DNA of 40,739 bases, from IMG/VR virus record IMGVR_UViG_3300031673_000174, positions 1 through 40,739 of that record. One strand, 5' to 3'. Positions 2,902-40,739 of the stretch are shown here, piece after piece. Position 1 is the stretch's first letter. Every line of letters starts with the position of its first letter. The translations under genes were made by a program, and so were the position numbers. The notes beneath the pieces are model-generated. The model was given only the letters and a program-made list of their open reading frames with translations. It did no database searches and was not told the origin of the DNA. Source of the DNA: a virus.

Positions 2902-3831
2902 GGAATCCCCGGTCAGGACGTTGGTGGTGGTCCCATCGTCATCGACGTATGCACACGTCCCTGTCGCCGCTACCTGCGTGTACGGGTGCTGCATATCCCG
3001 GCCACCCTCCCGCCAGTTGATGTTCTTGACCGTCAGAGTCTGAGCGGCTTGCGTTCCAACGCCCTCCAGAGTCACGATCAGGGACTTGAGCGGATTCGCC
3101 AGCATGTAGGCCAGGATATCGGCGTCGGTGGCGGCATACTCTTTGGCGTACCGCAGAGTGGCAGCGACCGACAACTGCCAGCCAGAGATATCCACCGCCG
3201 AAAGCGCCACGTCACCGTCACCGTAGTCTTGCCGGACGATGGCGTTGGCATTCACCGTGAAGTCCATCGCGTGATACACGTCGATGCTGTTGTAGGTCAC
3301 GGCAGTTGGCTTCCACAGCGATGCCGCCAGAACCAACGCCGGGACACTACCCGCCGCGATACCTCCCTCCGTCTTCAGAAGATCAGCGAAAGTATCGCTG
3401 TCATTTACCGCGCGACAGATTGCTTGGATCGTGCCCTGCGCGTAATTGCCCCGCGAGAATGCCATGCTCAGCGAAATCGGCACGGGATACATCAGGGACG
3501 CCTTTGACCACGTGGCCGCCCCTGATTCTCGACCGTACCAAACCCAGTCCCGGTTCGCCTCCAAGCCTGGACCTAGGAGTACCTTGGGGATCAGTTTCAG
3601 GATGTCGCGCGTGATCAGGGTGGCCCGCACGATCTGCCCAGCTTGATCGACCGCCGCCGGACCGCCAGCCCCGACCATGCCATCCTCTTCCGAGTCGATC
3701 TGATCGACGAAGCCCCGCGAGACTGTGATCCGCGAATTGCCCGCCAGCGTTGCGGTGTTCGCATCCGCCCCGCTCCAGCACGCGCAGTGCACTACTTCGT
3801 CGAACACCCGTTTGTTTACGATAGCAGCCAT
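2869..3831 (-). CDS. Probable tail tube (major tail) protein
   Basis: This 320-residue protein starts MAAIVNKRVFDEVVHCACW. I chose this ATG because it overlaps the upstream stop as TGATG; an upstream in-frame extension would run through the neighbouring gene. It lies directly before the tape-measure gene and after the head-tail connector genes, the usual position of a tail tube or major tail protein. The sequence alternates beta-rich stretches (AMDFTVNANAIVRQDYGDGD, QTLTVKNINW), compatible with a tube fold. I recognise no specific family. No frameshifted chaperone gene lies between it and the tape measure. Confidence 0.55.
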   Translation of the reverse strand: MAAIVNKRVFDEVVHCACWSGADANTATLAGNSRITVSRGFVDQIDSEEDGMVGAGGPAAVDQAGQIVRATLITRDILKLIPKVLLGPGLEANRDWVWYGRESGAATWSKASLMYPVPISLSMAFSRGNYAQGTIQAICRAVNDSDTFADLLKTEGGIAAGSVPALVLAASLWKPTAVTYNSIDVYHAMDFTVNANAIVRQDYGDGDVALSAVDISGWQLSVAATLRYAKEYAATDADILAYMLANPLKSLIVTLEGVGTQAAQTLTVKNINWREGGRDMQHPYTQVAATGTCAYVDDDGTTTNVLTGDSGDRLLVFAAA

Positions 3832-4346
3832 CAGCTTGCCTCCACTTCGTGAGTTTGAAACCGGCAGAGCATGACTGCGTTGCCGGACGAATGCCAGATA
3901 ATCTCCGCACCTTGGTACATGATGATGTCCGAGTACCAGCCCAGGTTGGTCAGCAACTCCCCTTCCCCATCCACGGGCCGCTTGTTGTGTAGCGCGTTTA
4001 TCAGTAACTCTCGCATCCGATTCGTACCTGGTTTCGTGCCATCGCCGCGCCGGGCTGTCCCTGGTCTGCGGTTCTTGATTCCGACCCACACATCATACTG
4101 CCCGTTCCGCCGGACAAGGCCCTCTTCCAGCGGCTCGGCAACGTCGCGGTTGAATCGCACCTGGACGGCCAGATCGCGCTTACCGTCTGACAGGTGGGTA
4201 TTCACGAAGTCGATGGCCTCTTCGTCGGAGCCGTCCCAGGCCGCGACCTCGACCGCCTCGAATACCGCGCCGCTGTCCGTGATCGCCACGATGGTATCGA
4301 CCAGCCAGTCCTCCACCTGCGATGCCAGGCTACCGTCAGTTGCCAC
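3831..4346 (-). CDS. Mu gp37-like (DUF1834-type) tail protein, tentative
   Basis: The GTG at 4346 is preferred as start: GGGAGG lies 8 bases upstream and the gene then overlaps the SpeD-like stop by only 11 bp. That gives 171 residues (VATDGSLASQVEDWLVDTI at the start). The protein has a strand-rich middle (RDLAVQVRFNRDV) and ends in a segment on the site of action, WYSDIIMYQGAEIIWHSSG. Size and position after gpG-like and gp36-like genes resemble Mu gp37/DUF1834 tail-completion proteins. The family call rests mainly on position. Confidence 0.5.
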   Translation of the reverse strand: MATDGSLASQVEDWLVDTIVAITDSGAVFEAVEVAAWDGSDEEAIDFVNTHLSDGKRDLAVQVRFNRDVAEPLEEGLVRRNGQYDVWVGIKNRRPGTARRGDGTKPGTNRMRELLINALHNKRPVDGEGELLTNLGWYSDIIMYQGAEIIWHSSGNAVMLCRFQTHEVEAS

Positions 4347-4641
4347 ATTCGGCCTCCCAAGCCTGCATCGCTGCCTGAAACGCCGCAAGGTCCGCAGCAT
4401 CGCCGCAGGTTGCCAACTCTACCCAAGCAGTCCCATCCTCGGGCCACGTATGGATCGCGGCATGACTTTCACCCAGCAGCACCAAGCCCGAAAACCCGCT
4501 ACCCGGGAAGGAATGGTGACAGGTGCCCATAACTGTGACACTGAGGCGGTTCACGGCTTCCAGAAACCGCTGCCAAACCAGGACCGAGTCGGCCACATCG
4601 ATCCGCATGGTAAGCGAAACTGTGCGAACATGGTTCGTCAT
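4336..4641 (-). CDS. SpeD-like S-adenosylmethionine decarboxylase family protein
   Basis: This 101-residue protein contains the hallmark of bacterial SpeD, a small self-processing pyruvoyl enzyme: GESHAAIHTWPEDG followed by WVELATCGD. Glu58-Ser59 is the expected autocleavage site and Ser59 would become the pyruvoyl group. His64 and Cys79 align with the processing histidine and the catalytic cysteine. It lacks about 20 C-terminal residues of typical class 1B SpeD (120-130 aa). The start overlaps the upstream ParB-like gene as ATGA. Its place inside the head-tail operon is unusual for a metabolic gene. Substrate cannot be told: phage and bacterial SpeD homologues may use S-adenosylmethionine, arginine or ornithine. 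Confidence 0.88.
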   Translation of the reverse strand: MTNHVRTVSLTMRIDVADSVLVWQRFLEAVNRLSVTVMGTCHHSFPGSGFSGLVLLGESHAAIHTWPEDGTAWVELATCGDAADLAAFQAAMQAWEAECGN

Positions 4642-4796
4642 GCTAAGGCTTCCGAAACACAGACGATCGGCTTCTGCTGCCCGAACTCCAGCAGGGATGC
4701 CTTGATCGTTTCCAAGTTGCGCGGCGGGTGCATTCGCACGTTCGCCGGGTCTTCGTGCAGGTCCGCAATCGCTACCGTTTCGATTTCGAGCGTCAT
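4638..4796 (-). CDS. Truncated ParB N-terminal-like domain protein
   Basis: From the ATG at 4796 (GGCGAGGA upstream) the gene encodes 52 residues, MTLEIETVAIADL then EDPANVRMHPPRNLETIKAS and FGQQKPIV. This is the opening of a ParB/Srx-type domain, found in partition proteins and in phage DNA-modification-associated proteins. The GxxR nucleotide-binding segment and everything after it are absent. The stop overlaps the SpeD-like start (ATGA). It could be a minimal functional peptide, or a decayed gene whose 3' part was replaced when the SpeD-like gene arrived. Confidence 0.65.
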   Translation of the reverse strand: MTLEIETVAIADLHEDPANVRMHPPRNLETIKASLLEFGQQKPIVCVSEALA

Positions 4797-4810
4797 GGCA
4801 TCCTCGCCTT

Positions 4811-5440
4811 TCAATCCTTCAACCCCATGAATGTAGGCCATAGTTCCTCGAAGATAGTCCGCCGGTCCTCAGCGTCCATGAACAAATAGGGCCGTGGCCT
4901 GTGGGTCACTGAGGGTACGAGGACGTACAGCACGCCCGTTCCGTGCCCTAGCGTGCCCTTATCGTCTACCAGATACCCCACCGCCTTGCCGCCCGGCTTC
5001 GCGGGCACGAATCGCAGAACCTCTTTCGCCGGGTCTAGGTGCCGGGGCATGATCCCGCCGCCCAGGCGCAAGGAACGCTTGCGGGGAATGGCCAAATACT
5101 TCCGGGGCGGTCGGGCGACGATAGTGCCCCCGTAGTGCACATGGGCCGCATACGGCAGATTCGAGCCGACCTCCACGCTAGTCAGACCTTGCCACCAGAT
5201 TGTGTGCTCGGACCCACCTCCCTTGTCTGCCGCCGCCAGGCTGGCAGACAGCCGCCCCGTCCGCACCACGTCAGCACCCATGCTGAGCACCTGTGGTAGC
5301 CGCCGTAGAGCGGAACTCATGACATAGGCACCAGTAGTCTTCAGGAAGTCCGAAAGGTCATTCAGTCGCGCGGCTGAGCGGTGAAACATCTCCCGGTCGC
5401 CGGTATGATCCCAATGGATTGTGAGCGACCGGAGAGCCAT
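4811..5440 (-). CDS. Phage virion morphogenesis protein (Mu gpG-like)
   Basis: This 209-residue protein starts MALRSLTIHWDHTGDREMF. It has the layout of Mu gpG-type virion morphogenesis proteins: a helical N-terminus (RLNDLSDFLKTTGAYVMSSA), a central VRTGRLSASL and YAAHVHYGGTIVARPPRKYL segment, and the conserved C-terminal RPRPYLFMDAEDRRTIFE. In Mu-like phages this protein acts in head-tail joining or tail assembly. It starts one base after the stop of the gp36-like gene, so the two are clearly co-transcribed. Confidence 0.8.
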   Translation of the reverse strand: MALRSLTIHWDHTGDREMFHRSAARLNDLSDFLKTTGAYVMSSALRRLPQVLSMGADVVRTGRLSASLAAADKGGGSEHTIWWQGLTSVEVGSNLPYAAHVHYGGTIVARPPRKYLAIPRKRSLRLGGGIMPRHLDPAKEVLRFVPAKPGGKAVGYLVDDKGTLGHGTGVLYVLVPSVTHRPRPYLFMDAEDRRTIFEELWPTFMGLKD

Positions 5441-5441
5441 G

Positions 5442-5885
5442 TTACAAGTCCTCCATGTTCTCCCGCGAAGCCGCCCTCGTAGCCGAATTGACCTCGATAG
5501 CCGGTGGGTCCGCCGTCGCCGATGCCGGAGTCCCCGAGGCTGCCGGGAGAGGATGCACGCCGCTCCGCACGTCCGCCAACCACGCCTTTACGTGGTCATA
5601 CAGTTTCTGCTTGGCTCCGCTGACCAGACCCCGGCGCTGATGTAGGAAAAAATCCACTAGGTCTAAAGCTAGTGCTCGGAGCGTGGCTGCAAGACTGGTA
5701 TCGCCCGTTACGTCGACGGGCACCGCGTAGCGATACCCGATATCCGCGTCCATTGCCGCGTGCGCCCGCTCGATCGCATCATCGACAATGGCATAGACCA
5801 CCGATGAGCCGCTGTCCGAAGTCAACTCGATCAGCGCCGTCGAGCCCAGTCGTGCCAGCACGTCTGCTTGTGTGCAGTATGCCAC
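5442..5885 (-). CDS. Mu gp36-like protein (DUF1320)
   Basis: The gene starts with GTG at 5885 and encodes 147 residues. The N-terminus AYCTQADVLARLGSTALIEL, then a repeat of acidic/helical segments (VDDAIERAHAAMDADIGYRY) and LRALALDLVDFFLHQRRG, is the DUF1320 pattern. This is a gp6/gp36-type head-completion or connector protein. The last 40 residues (PAASGTPASATADPPAIEV) are low-complexity. The start abuts the stop of the preceding gene at 5886. Confidence 0.85.
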   Translation of the reverse strand: MAYCTQADVLARLGSTALIELTSDSGSSVVYAIVDDAIERAHAAMDADIGYRYAVPVDVTGDTSLAATLRALALDLVDFFLHQRRGLVSGAKQKLYDHVKAWLADVRSGVHPLPAASGTPASATADPPAIEVNSATRAASRENMEDL

Positions 5886-6245
5886 CTACAGCCCCTTAGC
5901 ATACGCCCCGCGTTTCGCCCGCTCCGGCTTTGCCATTGGAACAGGGGTCGGCTCCGGCACAGTGTGCGGCATGGATTCGGCCACGCCGCCGCGCCCGCCG
6001 CCCGCACGTCGCGGGATCGGATTCGTCGGCGGTCCCGTCGCGGGTATGGGCGTGGGCAGATTGAACGGCACGCCGCAATGATCCGCCCAGCGTTTGCGGG
6101 TCTCATAGATGATTTCCGCCCCATTCACCCGCCGCCCTAAACTGCGGAACTCGGCTTTCACTTTGTCCATGATGGCAGCGAACGCCAGCTTCTCATTGCG
6201 GGCGTGCACTTCGGCGTTCACGTCATCTGGTTTCGGTGCAAACAT
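5886..6245 (-). CDS. Hypothetical head-region protein with a Pro-rich tail
   Basis: 119 residues. The first 65 are charged and helical (AEVHARNEKLAFAAIMDKVK, then RWADHCGVPF), and the rest is proline/glycine/arginine-rich (PTPIPATGPPTNPIPRRAGG). I do not recognise it. It lies between the capsid-protein terminator and the gp36-like gene, where Mu-like phages encode small head proteins. Its distance from the capsid gene (93 bp with a hairpin) means its expression may be lower than that of the capsid. Confidence 0.6.
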   Translation of the reverse strand: MFAPKPDDVNAEVHARNEKLAFAAIMDKVKAEFRSLGRRVNGAEIIYETRKRWADHCGVPFNLPTPIPATGPPTNPIPRRAGGGRGGVAESMPHTVPEPTPVPMAKPERAKRGAYAKGL

Positions 6246-18978: not shown

Positions 18979-19881
18979 TCAAGCCGTAACCTTGGCGAAC
19001 GGTAGCATTTCATCATCGACCTTATCGCGCTGGCTTATCGCGTCGTCCAGATTGCTTATTGCCGCCGCGTAGTATTCGTCCTTGATCTCGCAACCGTAAA
19101 ACCGTCGCCCCAATTTCAGCGCCTCGTAACCTTCAGAACCAATCCCGGCAAAGGGCGAAAAGACGATCTCGCCCGGCAAGGAATACAGGGTAATCAAACG
19201 ACGAATCACCTTAAGCTGCAAGGGGCATATATGCTTCGTGTCATTTTCGCCTCGTCCGGCAACCACATTCAGGGTGTCCGTCTCCCTGATTTCGTGCCAC
19301 GTCCATACGCCCTCGGCCCATGCAATCCAGTCATTACGGCTAACTTCCGAGCTGCGGATTGGGACGGCATTCTCACCGGCACCCCGGAATTTGATCAAGT
19401 AATCATTCAGGGCGGGTCGACTCTTGGCGCGGTCACTGTCCAAACCCGAAAACTGCAACTCTCGGCTTTTCGTTCTGATTGCTTGCGATTGCGGGTTCTT
19501 GGTCACCGGAATATCAGTCTCGTAAATCAATCCGGCACGCTCACCCAAGCGGATATTCAGTCCCCGGAAGTCGTGCAAGCCGTATTCTCCACTCCTTTTC
19601 ATTCGGGGTATCTGGGCGACGTGGACCATCGCCACTCTACCGGGTTTCAGCACGCGGCCTAATCCACGGTAAAACCAACTCAGGTGTAATGTTGTCTCCG
19701 TTTTGAACTCCTCACTGTTTCCGATGTCTTCAGCAAGAGACGTATAAGCATACAAGCTCGGGAACGGCGGCGAAAACACGGCCATATCCACGGAGTGCAT
19801 TGGCATCGCTTCCCACATATGAGGGATGCAATCCCCCTTGTGGAGCTTATATTCCGCTTCGCCCGTCAAAGGCGTATTCAT
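18979..19881 (-). CDS. DNA methyltransferase, predicted N4-cytosine type
   Basis: 300 residues. The catalytic motif IV is MAVFSPPFPSLYAY (SPPF at 37-40) and precedes the SAM-binding motif I FSPFAGIGSEG (241-251). This is the permuted beta-class order. SPPF favours N4-cytosine over N6-adenine methylation, but this is not certain from motif alone. It overlaps the SNF2-like helicase gene by 35 bp. No restriction endonuclease is adjacent, so self-protection of phage DNA or a role in the helicase system is more likely than a restriction-modification pair. Confidence 0.85.
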   Translation of the reverse strand: MNTPLTGEAEYKLHKGDCIPHMWEAMPMHSVDMAVFSPPFPSLYAYTSLAEDIGNSEEFKTETTLHLSWFYRGLGRVLKPGRVAMVHVAQIPRMKRSGEYGLHDFRGLNIRLGERAGLIYETDIPVTKNPQSQAIRTKSRELQFSGLDSDRAKSRPALNDYLIKFRGAGENAVPIRSSEVSRNDWIAWAEGVWTWHEIRETDTLNVVAGRGENDTKHICPLQLKVIRRLITLYSLPGEIVFSPFAGIGSEGYEALKLGRRFYGCEIKDEYYAAAISNLDDAISQRDKVDDEMLPFAKVTA

Positions 19882-21566: not shown

Positions 21567-22247
21567 TCATGCTTCTCGCAGCAACCGTCCACCTACATCA
21601 ATTCGCCAACCCGCAGGCGCATCCCTTGATAGACATGCGCCTGAAAGGTTCGCCCCGCTGAGGTTCGCCCCGCTGAGGTTCGCCCCGCTGAGGTACGCCC
21701 CGGTGAGGTACGCCCTGCTGAGGTCTGCCCCGCTGAGGTTTGCCCCGCTGAGGTTCGCCCCGCCGAGGTCTGCCCCGCTGAGGTTCGCCCCGCCGAGGTT
21801 CGCCCCGCTGAGGTACGCCCCGCTGAGGTACGCCCCGCTGAGGTCTGCCCCGCTGAGGTTTGCCCAGCCGATATCGGCGTCTTTCGATAACGAGCGCATG
21901 GTTGCGGCCAGGAATGCGCGTAAGCGTGGGTAGGCGCACAACAGAGGATAATCGCGGGTCACTTCTATGAGCAATCTGGCGCGCCGAACGGCTATTTTCT
22001 CCGAGTTATCACTACAACATCCAACATCACTATCAGTTTCCGCCAGAAATAAACGTGCTTTCGGCCTCCACCAGCGCAGCGGGTCACTAACAAGATGCAG
22101 GCCGGTTTGGCAGATTACAGGTGCAACTCCGCAATCATACCATTCGCCGGGCTGGTCATCGTATGGTAGGGGCCACTGCCCATTCCCGCCGTGTATAGAT
22201 TCACCGTTAGGCCCGAGCACTTTGAACAACTGTAAAGATATTGTCAT
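21567..22247 (-). CDS. Pentapeptide-repeat protein with N-terminal domain
   Basis: 226 residues from ATG 22247, whose ribosome site lies in the diverged cassette copy. Residues 1-125 form a compact Trp/Gly-rich domain ([53 protein letters not shown]). Residues of about 130-210 are 16 tandem A(N/D/Y)LSG pentapeptides, which fold as a right-handed quadrilateral beta-helix. Some pentapeptide proteins (Qnr, MfpA) mimic DNA and bind gyrase; most have no known role. The phage might use it on gyrase or on host nucleases, but nothing here shows this. Confidence 0.85.
21631..21873 (-). repeat. Tandem 15-bp repeat encoding the pentapeptides
   Basis: About 16 near-identical 15-mers of the form cgccccgctgaggtn (plus-strand reading), with substitutions mostly confined to the third base triplet that changes Asn, Asp and Tyr. 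The DNA-level regularity implies recent expansion. Copy number here is prone to both slippage and assembly error. Confidence 0.9.
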
Positions 22248-22271
22248 CGTCTCACTCCTGATCCCACCACC
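22245..22271 (-). repeat. Translation-start cassette, diverged copy 3
   Basis: Matches 18774-18800 except for two substitutions (a T-to-C in the stop triplet region and a T-to-C in the Asn/Asp codon). Here the KWWNQE-type ending is real: it is the RWWDQE C-terminus of the dockerin-like lipoprotein. This copy may therefore be the source of the others. Confidence 0.75.
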
Positions 22272-22797
22272 GCACAATCCACGCCACGCCGCTACCTAAC
22301 CCCATCCACGTGCAACAACCGTTCGCATCAAGCTCGCAGACAAGCTCCGACTGAATCACACCGTCATAGCTGAAGAGAAACGCCCACCCGGTGCACGGCT
22401 CGCGGGGAGGGCCGCAATGCGTGAAACATACGCTGATTATCCCTAGCGGACTCGCACGCCAGAACCACGCTTGTAACGCTGCGAAGTCCCATAGGTCCAC
22501 GTCGCCGTCGTTGTCGAGATCGAACTTCATACAGTCGTCGGTGCGGAAACCCATGTCCGGCCCGGACAGACATTCACAAAAGTTCATTGGCTCCTGAGAG
22601 AGATCACACGCCAGGGCGCGAGCGAGGAAATGCTCGGCATCATTCATCGGCTTCTCAGGCAATGGGTAGCCTTTGACGACCGGGCATGGCAAGCCTGTCG
22701 GCGTCACGTACCGAGCTACTGTGGTCACCGGGCAAGGTGGGCACAGGCGCCGGCAGCCAGTGAGTACAATCAATGATATGTACATATATCTACTCAC
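22252..22797 (-). CDS. Dockerin-like lipoprotein of planctomycete type
   Basis: 181 residues if the GTG at 22797 is used; an ATG at 22785 is better spaced from GGGGAG. A short hydrophobic leader ends in LIVLTGC, a lipobox with Cys15. Residues 74-110 hold [16 protein letters not shown] and the calcium loop [13 protein letters not shown] followed by AALQAW, a motif set common in planctomycete secreted proteins. The last part is beta-rich with [13 protein letters not shown]. Function unknown; a surface-exposed phage lipoprotein could act in superinfection exclusion. Strongest pointer to the host. Confidence 0.75.
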
Positions 22798-39485: not shown

Positions 39486-40739
39486 CAGTTACGCCCCCCC
39501 GAGCGGACGCGCTCGTTGCCGGTCTTTGCGTGGACAGTGGCGTTATACTGCTTGTTCTCGGCAATGTTGACATTGAGCGTCACATCACTTGGCCCCATAT
39601 GCCCGGTGCGACGTAACAGCATTTCTAATGCCTGCATCTGGGCCGAGCTAAAGCCCCATTCCTGCGCTTGTGGACCACCGATAAGACTCCATAGTTCAAG
39701 CCCCAAGCCGACTCCAGTCTCTCGACGTGCCTCCTCAAATAGCTGTTCCTGCGGTGTCCGCCCGGCTAGACGTGCCCTGGCATCAATTGTGATTGCGCGA
39801 TACTGTGCGTCTTGTTCGTATTTCGCGAGCTTCCGCTTATAAGTCTCAGCGGTTTCTAATACTTCTTTTCGATCCTCTTCACTTAAACCCCATATCCCTT
39901 CCTTTAGGAATTGCTCGGCTTCGGGGCCGCTGATATCCTCCCGCATACGTTGCCGCCGCATTTCCTTGTCGGCTTCCGCTCGGCGCTCTTCTTCTTCTTC
40001 CGCCCGTTCAAGCCGCTCGCGGCGGTGGCGCCGCTCGAAATCCCGCGCCCGCTTTTCCTGGCTTCCAGCGATATCAATCGTTTCGCCAGCGGCGGTTACT
40101 CGCCTCATTTCTTCCCGAGTAACGAGCCCGATACCCGCGACGATGTTCTGCCGCAATTCGTCTTGCAGGTCCGCAGCGAATCGGGGAGCTTCCATGCGAT
40201 ACATCTCTCGCGCTTGGGTTTCCTCTTCCGCCGTAAACCCCTTTTCTTTACGTAGCCGCGACAGTTCTCGCATTTGCGTCACGGCTTCATCTTCCAGTTT
40301 CACCTCTTCGGCTTGGGCGTCTTTGCGGCGTTGCTCCTCCTCCCTGAGCTTCGCTACCGCTTCCCGGTGCTGATTGATCGCCCACGTAAGCGCTATTACG
40401 CCGCCATAAGCCAGTCCGCCCGCGCCGAGCAACCCGAGCACGCCGCTATACTTTTCGATACCCGATGCCAGCGCAGAGAACGTGCCCCTCAGCGTCATCT
40501 GCTTAGTGGCCAGGTCGCCCGCGATCTTGGCGCCCTTCTCCATTGACGCGATGAACGCCCCGAGCATGGGGTTAACGCGGCTGCCCAGCTCCGCATAGTC
40601 CCCGACCGCAGCCGTTGCTTTGGTCTGAGCGGTAGTGAACTCGTCAAGAGGTGGAGCAGCTTCGGTTATCTTTTGGGTGAACCGATCCTGGGCGTCCGCG
40701 ACCTTGTGAAAATCGGCGGCCCCCTTGTCAGCCCCCTGG
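39485..40739 (-). CDS. Tape-measure protein, allele A (5' end beyond the window edge)
   Basis: The frame is open to the last base of the window; joined through the shared repeat to the start codon at 2859 it would be about 430 residues. A hydrophobic segment (KYSGVLGLLGAGGLAYGGVI) near residue 110 is followed by a long charged coiled coil (RREAVAKL..., ERAEEEEERRAEADKEMRRQ), then a C-terminal QLFEEARRETGVGLGLELWS. This is the usual tape-measure layout, but short, predicting a tail of roughly 60-70 nm if 0.15 nm per residue holds. Differs from allele B (2125-2859) after the first 70 residues. Confidence 0.75.
   Translation of the reverse strand, partial: QGADKGAADFHKVADAQDRFTQKITEAAPPLDEFTTAQTKATAAVGDYAELGSRVNPMLGAFIASMEKGAKIAGDLATKQMTLRGTFSALASGIEKYSGVLGLLGAGGLAYGGVIALTWAINQHREAVAKLREEEQRRKDAQAEEVKLEDEAVTQMRELSRLRKEKGFTAEEETQAREMYRMEAPRFAADLQDELRQNIVAGIGLVTREEMRRVTAAGETIDIAGSQEKRARDFERRHRRERLERAEEEEERRAEADKEMRRQRMREDISGPEAEQFLKEGIWGLSEEDRKEVLETAETYKRKLAKYEQDAQYRAITIDARARLAGRTPQEQLFEEARRETGVGLGLELWSLIGGPQAQEWGFSSAQMQALEMLLRRTGHMGPSDVTLNVNIAENKQYNATVHAKTGNERVRSGGRN
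40611..40729. repeat. 119-bp exact repeat of 2693-2811
   Basis: The right-end copy of the tape-measure 5' segment. The final 48 bases of the window also overlap bases 1-48 with a single mismatch. The most economical reading is a circular or terminally redundant genome whose ends were not merged because two alleles differ by SNPs. Confidence 0.95.

Follow-up and report, generated by a model that had tools for sequence, protein, structure and literature searches.

A SpeD-like gene in a phage late operon, the linkage of its relatives to ParB-associated DNA methyltransferases in other phages, and a proposed DNA aminopropylation

The speD-like gene and its setting in the late operon

The stretch of viral DNA analyzed here (the window; 40,739 nucleotides in full) carries a Mu-like late operon in the order terminase, portal, gpF-like, protease, scaffold, decoration, capsid, gp36, neck, gp37-like and tube, some of these names being assigned by position only. 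A ParB-domain fragment and a speD-like gene lie between the neck and gp37-like genes. The features concerned are:

3831..4346, minus strand: gp37-like gene downstream of SpeD, named solely from where it lies in the Mu-like operon, without a family match
4336..4641, minus strand: speD-like gene for a predicted pyruvoyl-dependent decarboxylase of 101 aa, with Ser59, His64 and Cys79
4638..4841 (likely start 4796), minus strand: 67-codon ORF holding the N-terminal part of a ParB domain only (phrog_620, 3.5e-9); its stop overlaps the SpeD start (ATGA)
4811..5440, minus strand: neck/HK97-gp10-like gene upstream of the insert (phrog_26 connector, 9.6e-9; 48% identity to relative G001)
18979..19881, minus strand: the only other N6_N4 methyltransferase (MTase) found in the window, from another subfamily, one that is common in phages, and not next to SpeD

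The speD ORF (4641..4336) starts with the ATG at 4641 and stops at 4338-4336. Its product matches Pfam AdoMet_dc (PF02675; E=5.4e-18, 65.7 bits, gathering cut-off 25), the PHROG S-adenosylmethionine decarboxylase families (3e-15 and 6e-14) and the AdoMetDC of T. maritima (4e-12), all of them much too strong to arise by chance. Glu58-Ser59, His64 and Cys79 are present and invariant across a 27-sequence alignment, and the gene is a member of the SpeD family with the complete set of catalytic residues. An earlier note made from the letters of this DNA had described just such a 101-residue SpeD-like pyruvoyl decarboxylase, and the Pfam, PHROG and alignment results bear it out. The structure prediction that it had proposed as a check points the same way: the AlphaFold model (mean pLDDT 95.3) has an AdoMetDC fold, with the prokaryotic AdoMetDCs 1vr7 from T. 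maritima (TM 0.79) and 2iii from A. aeolicus as its best PDB matches in Foldseek.

The window SpeD shares its fold, the self-processing Ser, the catalytic His and Cys and the HTxPE motif with the class 1b AdoMetDCs (PF02675; T. maritima TM0655). It differs from them in its length of about 100 aa with a short C-terminus, in being a phage operon gene, in its score against the NCBIfam AdoMetDC equivalog TIGR03330 (60.8 bits, below the cut-off of 75.65), and in belonging to a clade coupled to a DNA MTase instead of spermidine synthase. The TIGR03330 cut-off is passed by the MTase-linked relatives L047 (101.7 bits), L055 (86.3) and L108 (94.9). The HTxPE proline (Pro67) is kept in the window protein; we assume that it is probably the proline that PMC10407285 describes as conserved in bona fide AdoMetDC and absent from SpeD-derived arginine decarboxylase; SpeD-derived ornithine decarboxylase is marked by four residues, Gln, Thr, Phe and Tyr. 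AdoMet is the presumed substrate.

SpeD and the ORF before it share the bases ATGA (4641-4638), the start of the one and the stop of the other, and the gp37-like gene probably begins at GTG 4346, still within the 3' end of SpeD and with a GGGAGG six bases before it, in agreement with the translational coupling to virion genes that had been noticed before. GC content of speD by codon position is similar to that of the neighboring genes. The only relative found through TerL, G001 (44% TerL identity), has the same late gene order; in its record the neck match runs to L181:2351 and the gp37-like match already starts from L181:2339, so that no sequence separates them, and no AdoMet_dc gene was found there. 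A search of viral contigs with the window neck protein yielded zero relatives. Since the neck and gp37-like genes abut in G001, the ParB fragment and SpeD are inserted cargo in the window, and the late position alone is therefore no evidence for a packaging role. The role in adjusting polyamines during packaging that the earlier note had drawn from this location is not supported, G001 being empty at exactly the same point. A search for spermidine synthase (PF01564) in the window and in nine related virus records, which may be fragments and of which eight carry SpeD, likewise found none. A better account of the location comes from relatives that have SpeD behind a DNA methyltransferase, next to the terminase genes.

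The ParB fragment also matches phrog_498, a DNA methyltransferase family (4.1e-9, profile positions 27-76 of 633), the later part of which matches the SpeD-linked MTases described below. Its best match among the loci collected here is the ParB of the L055 MTase-SpeD cassette (55% identity), which is weak evidence in a set consisting mostly of such loci. The 67-codon ORF is possibly a remnant of a ParB or ParB-MTase gene. No MTase adjacent to SpeD was found in the window, where only the ParB fragment precedes SpeD. The simplest reading of this arrangement is that the window cassette is probably a remnant from which most of ParB and the MTase have been lost; the MTase may have been lost, may never have arrived, or may be replaced in trans. 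The MTase at 19881-18979 was considered as an in-trans partner, which is possible and not favored; it belongs to a common family (322 phage records) and is weakly similar to the SpeD-linked MTases.

Several other features were observed in the window. Positions 95-1765 encode an IetA-like AAA ATPase (PADLOC E=1.5e-79) along with an IetS-like N-terminal fragment, either an ietAS-type defense pair with one truncated partner at the end of the phage record or an assembly join. This pair is flanked by a 131-nt direct repeat (1-131 and 2775-2905), the first 47 nt of which recur at 40693-40739 (98%). Near opposite ends of the record, 2411-2710 and 40329-40628 are 74% identical copies encoding similar starts of tail tape-measure-like proteins. 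A pentapeptide-type repeat protein with about 15 copies of a 15-nt tandem repeat is encoded at 21567-22277, and the ORF at 22252-22797 contains, by eye, a dockerin-like stretch.

Linkage of SpeD to DNA methyltransferases

SpeD is linked to DNA METHYLTRANSFERASES in other phages: immediately before its nearest IMG/VR relatives stand a ParB-like gene and an N6_N4-type MTase, or else a ParB-MTase fusion, and the SpeD-MTase loci L001, L002, L005 and L006 usually adjoin terminase genes. The linkage was recovered when loci were searched with the MTase only, using no SpeD information. SpeD is directly downstream in 10 of 17 loci of the separate-MTase family and immediately downstream in 56 of 91 loci of the fusion family, proportions that do not represent prevalence, as the loci were ranked by similarity to a SpeD-linked query (P2559S), which favors SpeD-linked loci, and the 91 include phage records looked up by name. 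In almost all cases the two genes overlap by 4-60 nt or are separated by a gap within 12 nt, short overlaps being commonest. The pair is present in isolated phages, namely Croceibacter phage P2559S (gp66-gp67) and Pseudomonas phage ZRG1 (WID42107-WID42108, followed by terminase genes). SpeD-MTase gene linkage thus occurs in many phages.

Phylogenetic analysis, another check proposed beforehand, places the window protein among SpeD proteins, in a clade of eight with 98% support in a tree of 122 columns and many unresolved forks. The other members are all MTase-linked (7/7), the partner being a separate MTase in five of them and a fusion in two. Because this clade spans both MTase families, the SpeD and MTase lineages appear to have been re-paired while remaining neighbors. 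HTxPE is retained in 62 of the 66 MTase-linked SpeDs, and the Ser/His/Cys set in nearly all of them. No MTase of the SpeD-linked kind was seen near the cellular SpeD relatives taken from genome_contigs (L012-L033), and an MTase alignment run against 396 genomes of the Actinoplanes phylum gave seven weak matches, mostly to ParB domains, with no SpeD. In the non-preprint literature searched, no paper describing a pairing of SpeD and a DNA MTase came to light.

Two of the loci have unusual arrangements. In the SpeD at L073:3822-4079 the Ser and His motif is missing through an in-frame deletion situated between two GYT-coding stretches; the adjoining MTase is 95% identical to that of P2559S, and the deletion may be a natural loss or an assembly collapse. 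At L006 the SpeD-linked MTase is found in two tandem copies (3592-4515 and 5054-5947) followed by a single SpeD.

Motif I of the SpeD-linked methyltransferases

The SpeD-linked MTases have a motif I of the FAGD[TS]VFG type, whereas ParB-MTases without SpeD mostly show FAGGSVRG, GGEQTKG or FAGDTQKG types. This difference was first spotted by eye in six sequences and then tested in 91. None of the 56 SpeD-linked fusion-type MTases has a basic residue at position 250 (P2559S numbering; F in 53, M, L or Y in the rest), whereas 30 of the 35 SpeD-less ones have Arg or Lys there (21 R, 9 K); Fisher's test, in which kinship is ignored, gives 3e-19. When all MTase columns were scanned for separation of SpeD-linked from SpeD-less enzymes, position 250 ranked first and position 252 third. 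In a model of the L074 MTase, position 250 lies where the helix that follows the glycine-rich loop begins, and an Arg or Lys at this place may touch the SAM carboxylate.

On the tree of the fusion-type MTases (family 6), six changes of the SpeD label are needed. Only four supported independent contrasts are available, of which one to three are informative; all are in the predicted direction, but with so few of them the sign test cannot reach significance and does not do so (median p 0.5). Individual cases are instructive: a SpeD-less clade nested among SpeD-linked MTases (L100, L101, L103 and L112) has Lys at position 250, and the SpeD-linked L005, situated among mostly Arg-bearing MTases, has Tyr. 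In the separate-MTase family (family 5), Gln is found with SpeD and Arg without it (L053, L056, L058). The exceptions are L057, with Gln and no SpeD, in the separate family, and L118 and L125, with Phe and no SpeD, among the fusions.

An acidic residue (D/E) is present in the glycine-rich loop of all 56 SpeD-linked fusion-type MTases. It is not exclusive to them, as GGEQTKG and FAGDTQKG enzymes without SpeD also have one; the motif-I Asp alone was accordingly rejected as a signature, being shared by the SpeD-less FAGDTQKG MTases. Phage ParB-DNA methyltransferase fusions without SpeD (phrog_498; Enterococcus phiFL3A gp36, Listeria B054 gp77) have the ParB-MTase architecture in common with the SpeD-linked enzymes, and phiFL3A gp36 is similarly encoded upstream of terminase genes; however, fusions of this type carry Arg or Lys in motif I, where the SpeD-linked ones have Phe or another non-basic residue.

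Proposed DNA aminopropylation and alternative explanations

It is proposed that SpeD supplies decarboxylated SAM (dcSAM) to a ParB-associated, MTase-fold DNA aminopropyltransferase, of which the window carries a reduced descendant, a proposal to which we give an even chance of being right. SpeD would cleave itself, form its pyruvoyl group and convert SAM to dcSAM; the partner MTase, with a motif I free of Arg/Lys, would take dcSAM in place of SAM and move its 3-aminopropyl group to an exocyclic amine of the phage DNA (N6 of A or N4 of C), and the product would be a cationic hypermodified base. The adjacency of SpeD and the MTase suggests dcSAM as the natural cofactor, DNA as the acceptor and a 3-aminopropyl base as the natural product. 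An acidic loop residue together with loss of the nearby Arg/Lys is what would be expected if the cofactor has no carboxylate. The failure to find PF01564 in the records searched also speaks for the proposal; the lack of an MTase beside SpeD in the window, the TIGR03330 score of the window protein, the small number of tree contrasts and the exceptions in motif I speak against it.

Some known transferases already work with dcSAM. One is spermidine synthase, whose motif-I Asp binds the dcSAM amine and in which a D103I substitution gives SAM-dependent methyltransferase activity (PMC3725402, PMC6514230); in another, BpsA, Asp residues of the GDDD motif hold the aminopropyl group of dcSAM (PMC12979288). 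The proposed enzymes resemble both in having acidic residues near the glycine-rich loop, which in those transferases hold the dcSAM amine. Spermidine synthase and BpsA, however, act on polyamines, whereas the phage enzymes are of MTase type with a PPY motif and a ParB domain, and DNA is their proposed acceptor. By analogy, a phage precedent for an altered-SAM donor is offered by Synechococcus phage S-B43, in which CmoA makes carboxy-SAM that is used by CmoX, a DNA-MTase homolog, as proven biochemically; ParBc domains are common in CmoA-CmoX contigs (PMC12783734). Both systems combine a small SAM-remaking enzyme with a DNA-MTase homolog whose cofactor pocket is altered, with ParBc-domain proteins nearby. 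They differ in that CmoA-CmoX employs carboxy-SAM and a C5-cytosine MTase, while the SpeD-MTase pair has an N6/N4 amino MTase, with dcSAM as its proposed cofactor.

The prediction of aminopropylation is sharp and has a sequence signature. If it is true, aminopropylation would be a base modification not previously known in nature, and DNA-modifying enzymes would gain dcSAM as a novel cofactor, with phages using this polyamine precursor to fix positive charges covalently on their DNA. Together with CmoA-CmoX it would make two cases in which phages rework SAM for use in DNA chemistry, would give a function to phage SpeD genes annotated as polyamine genes, and might offer a means of introducing primary amines into DNA at defined sites.

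An ordinary auxiliary metabolic gene, whose dcSAM feeds the host spermidine synthase and so raises spermidine for phage replication, is a possibility that we hold to be unlikely. SpeD is found in many cyanophages and other phages, speD, speE and speB occur together in Microcystis phage MaAM05, and functional phage polyamine enzymes are on record (PMC9992855). This explanation nevertheless leaves the tight MTase linkage and the motif I correlation unaccounted for; the rest of the window SpeD clade is entirely MTase-linked, and PF01564 was not found in the window or its eight SpeD-bearing relatives. Somewhat less likely still is decayed cargo, in which the cassette has lost its MTase and SpeD is a leftover with no current function in the window phage. 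The ParB ORF cut off exactly at the SpeD start with no MTase following, and the empty site in G001, are in its favor, whereas the retention of all catalytic residues, the compact predicted fold, the neighbor-like codon-position GC and the tidy gene overlaps are not what it would lead one to expect.

The remaining alternatives concern the chemistry of SpeD or its partner. Depletion of host SAM, blunting SAM-dependent defenses as phage SAM lyases do, is improbable: PMC7877911 describes phage SAM-degrading enzymes that counter restriction, yet a SAM sink would starve the adjoining SAM-dependent MTase, and it would lead one to expect neither the altered motif I nor so strict an adjacency. The earlier note had also raised a change of substrate to arginine or ornithine, and some phage SpeD homologs are indeed arginine or ornithine decarboxylases, according to PMC9992855 and PMC10407285. 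Such a switch is not favored here and is rated more improbable than SAM depletion; the HTxPE proline is kept in the window protein as well as in 62 of the 66 MTase-linked SpeDs, the MTase-linked L047, L055 and L108 (unlike the window protein) score above the AdoMetDC equivalog cut-off, and the MTase link would be left unexplained. Phages decarboxylate amino acid conjugates on DNA, and it is conceivable that the MTase-like enzyme puts the 3-amino-3-carboxypropyl group of SAM on DNA for subsequent decarboxylation by SpeD, which would give identical gene linkage and the same aminopropyl base. We regard this route as the most doubtful of all, as the loss of Arg/Lys from motif I fits a carboxylate-free cofactor better than SAM and the SpeD proteins keep their AdoMetDC core.

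Two further ORFs among the collected loci are recorded here. A faecal contig (MT839461; L068:1606-3273) contains a single ORF combining a SpeD domain with a domain that has a DPPY motif and is BpsA-like by eye. In Pseudanabaena phage Pam4 (L066:961-3450), a ParB-MTase homolog annotated as a pyridoxal-phosphate dependent enzyme has a large insertion between motif I and PPY, possibly reflecting another cofactor or an amino-acid chemistry tied to this MTase family.
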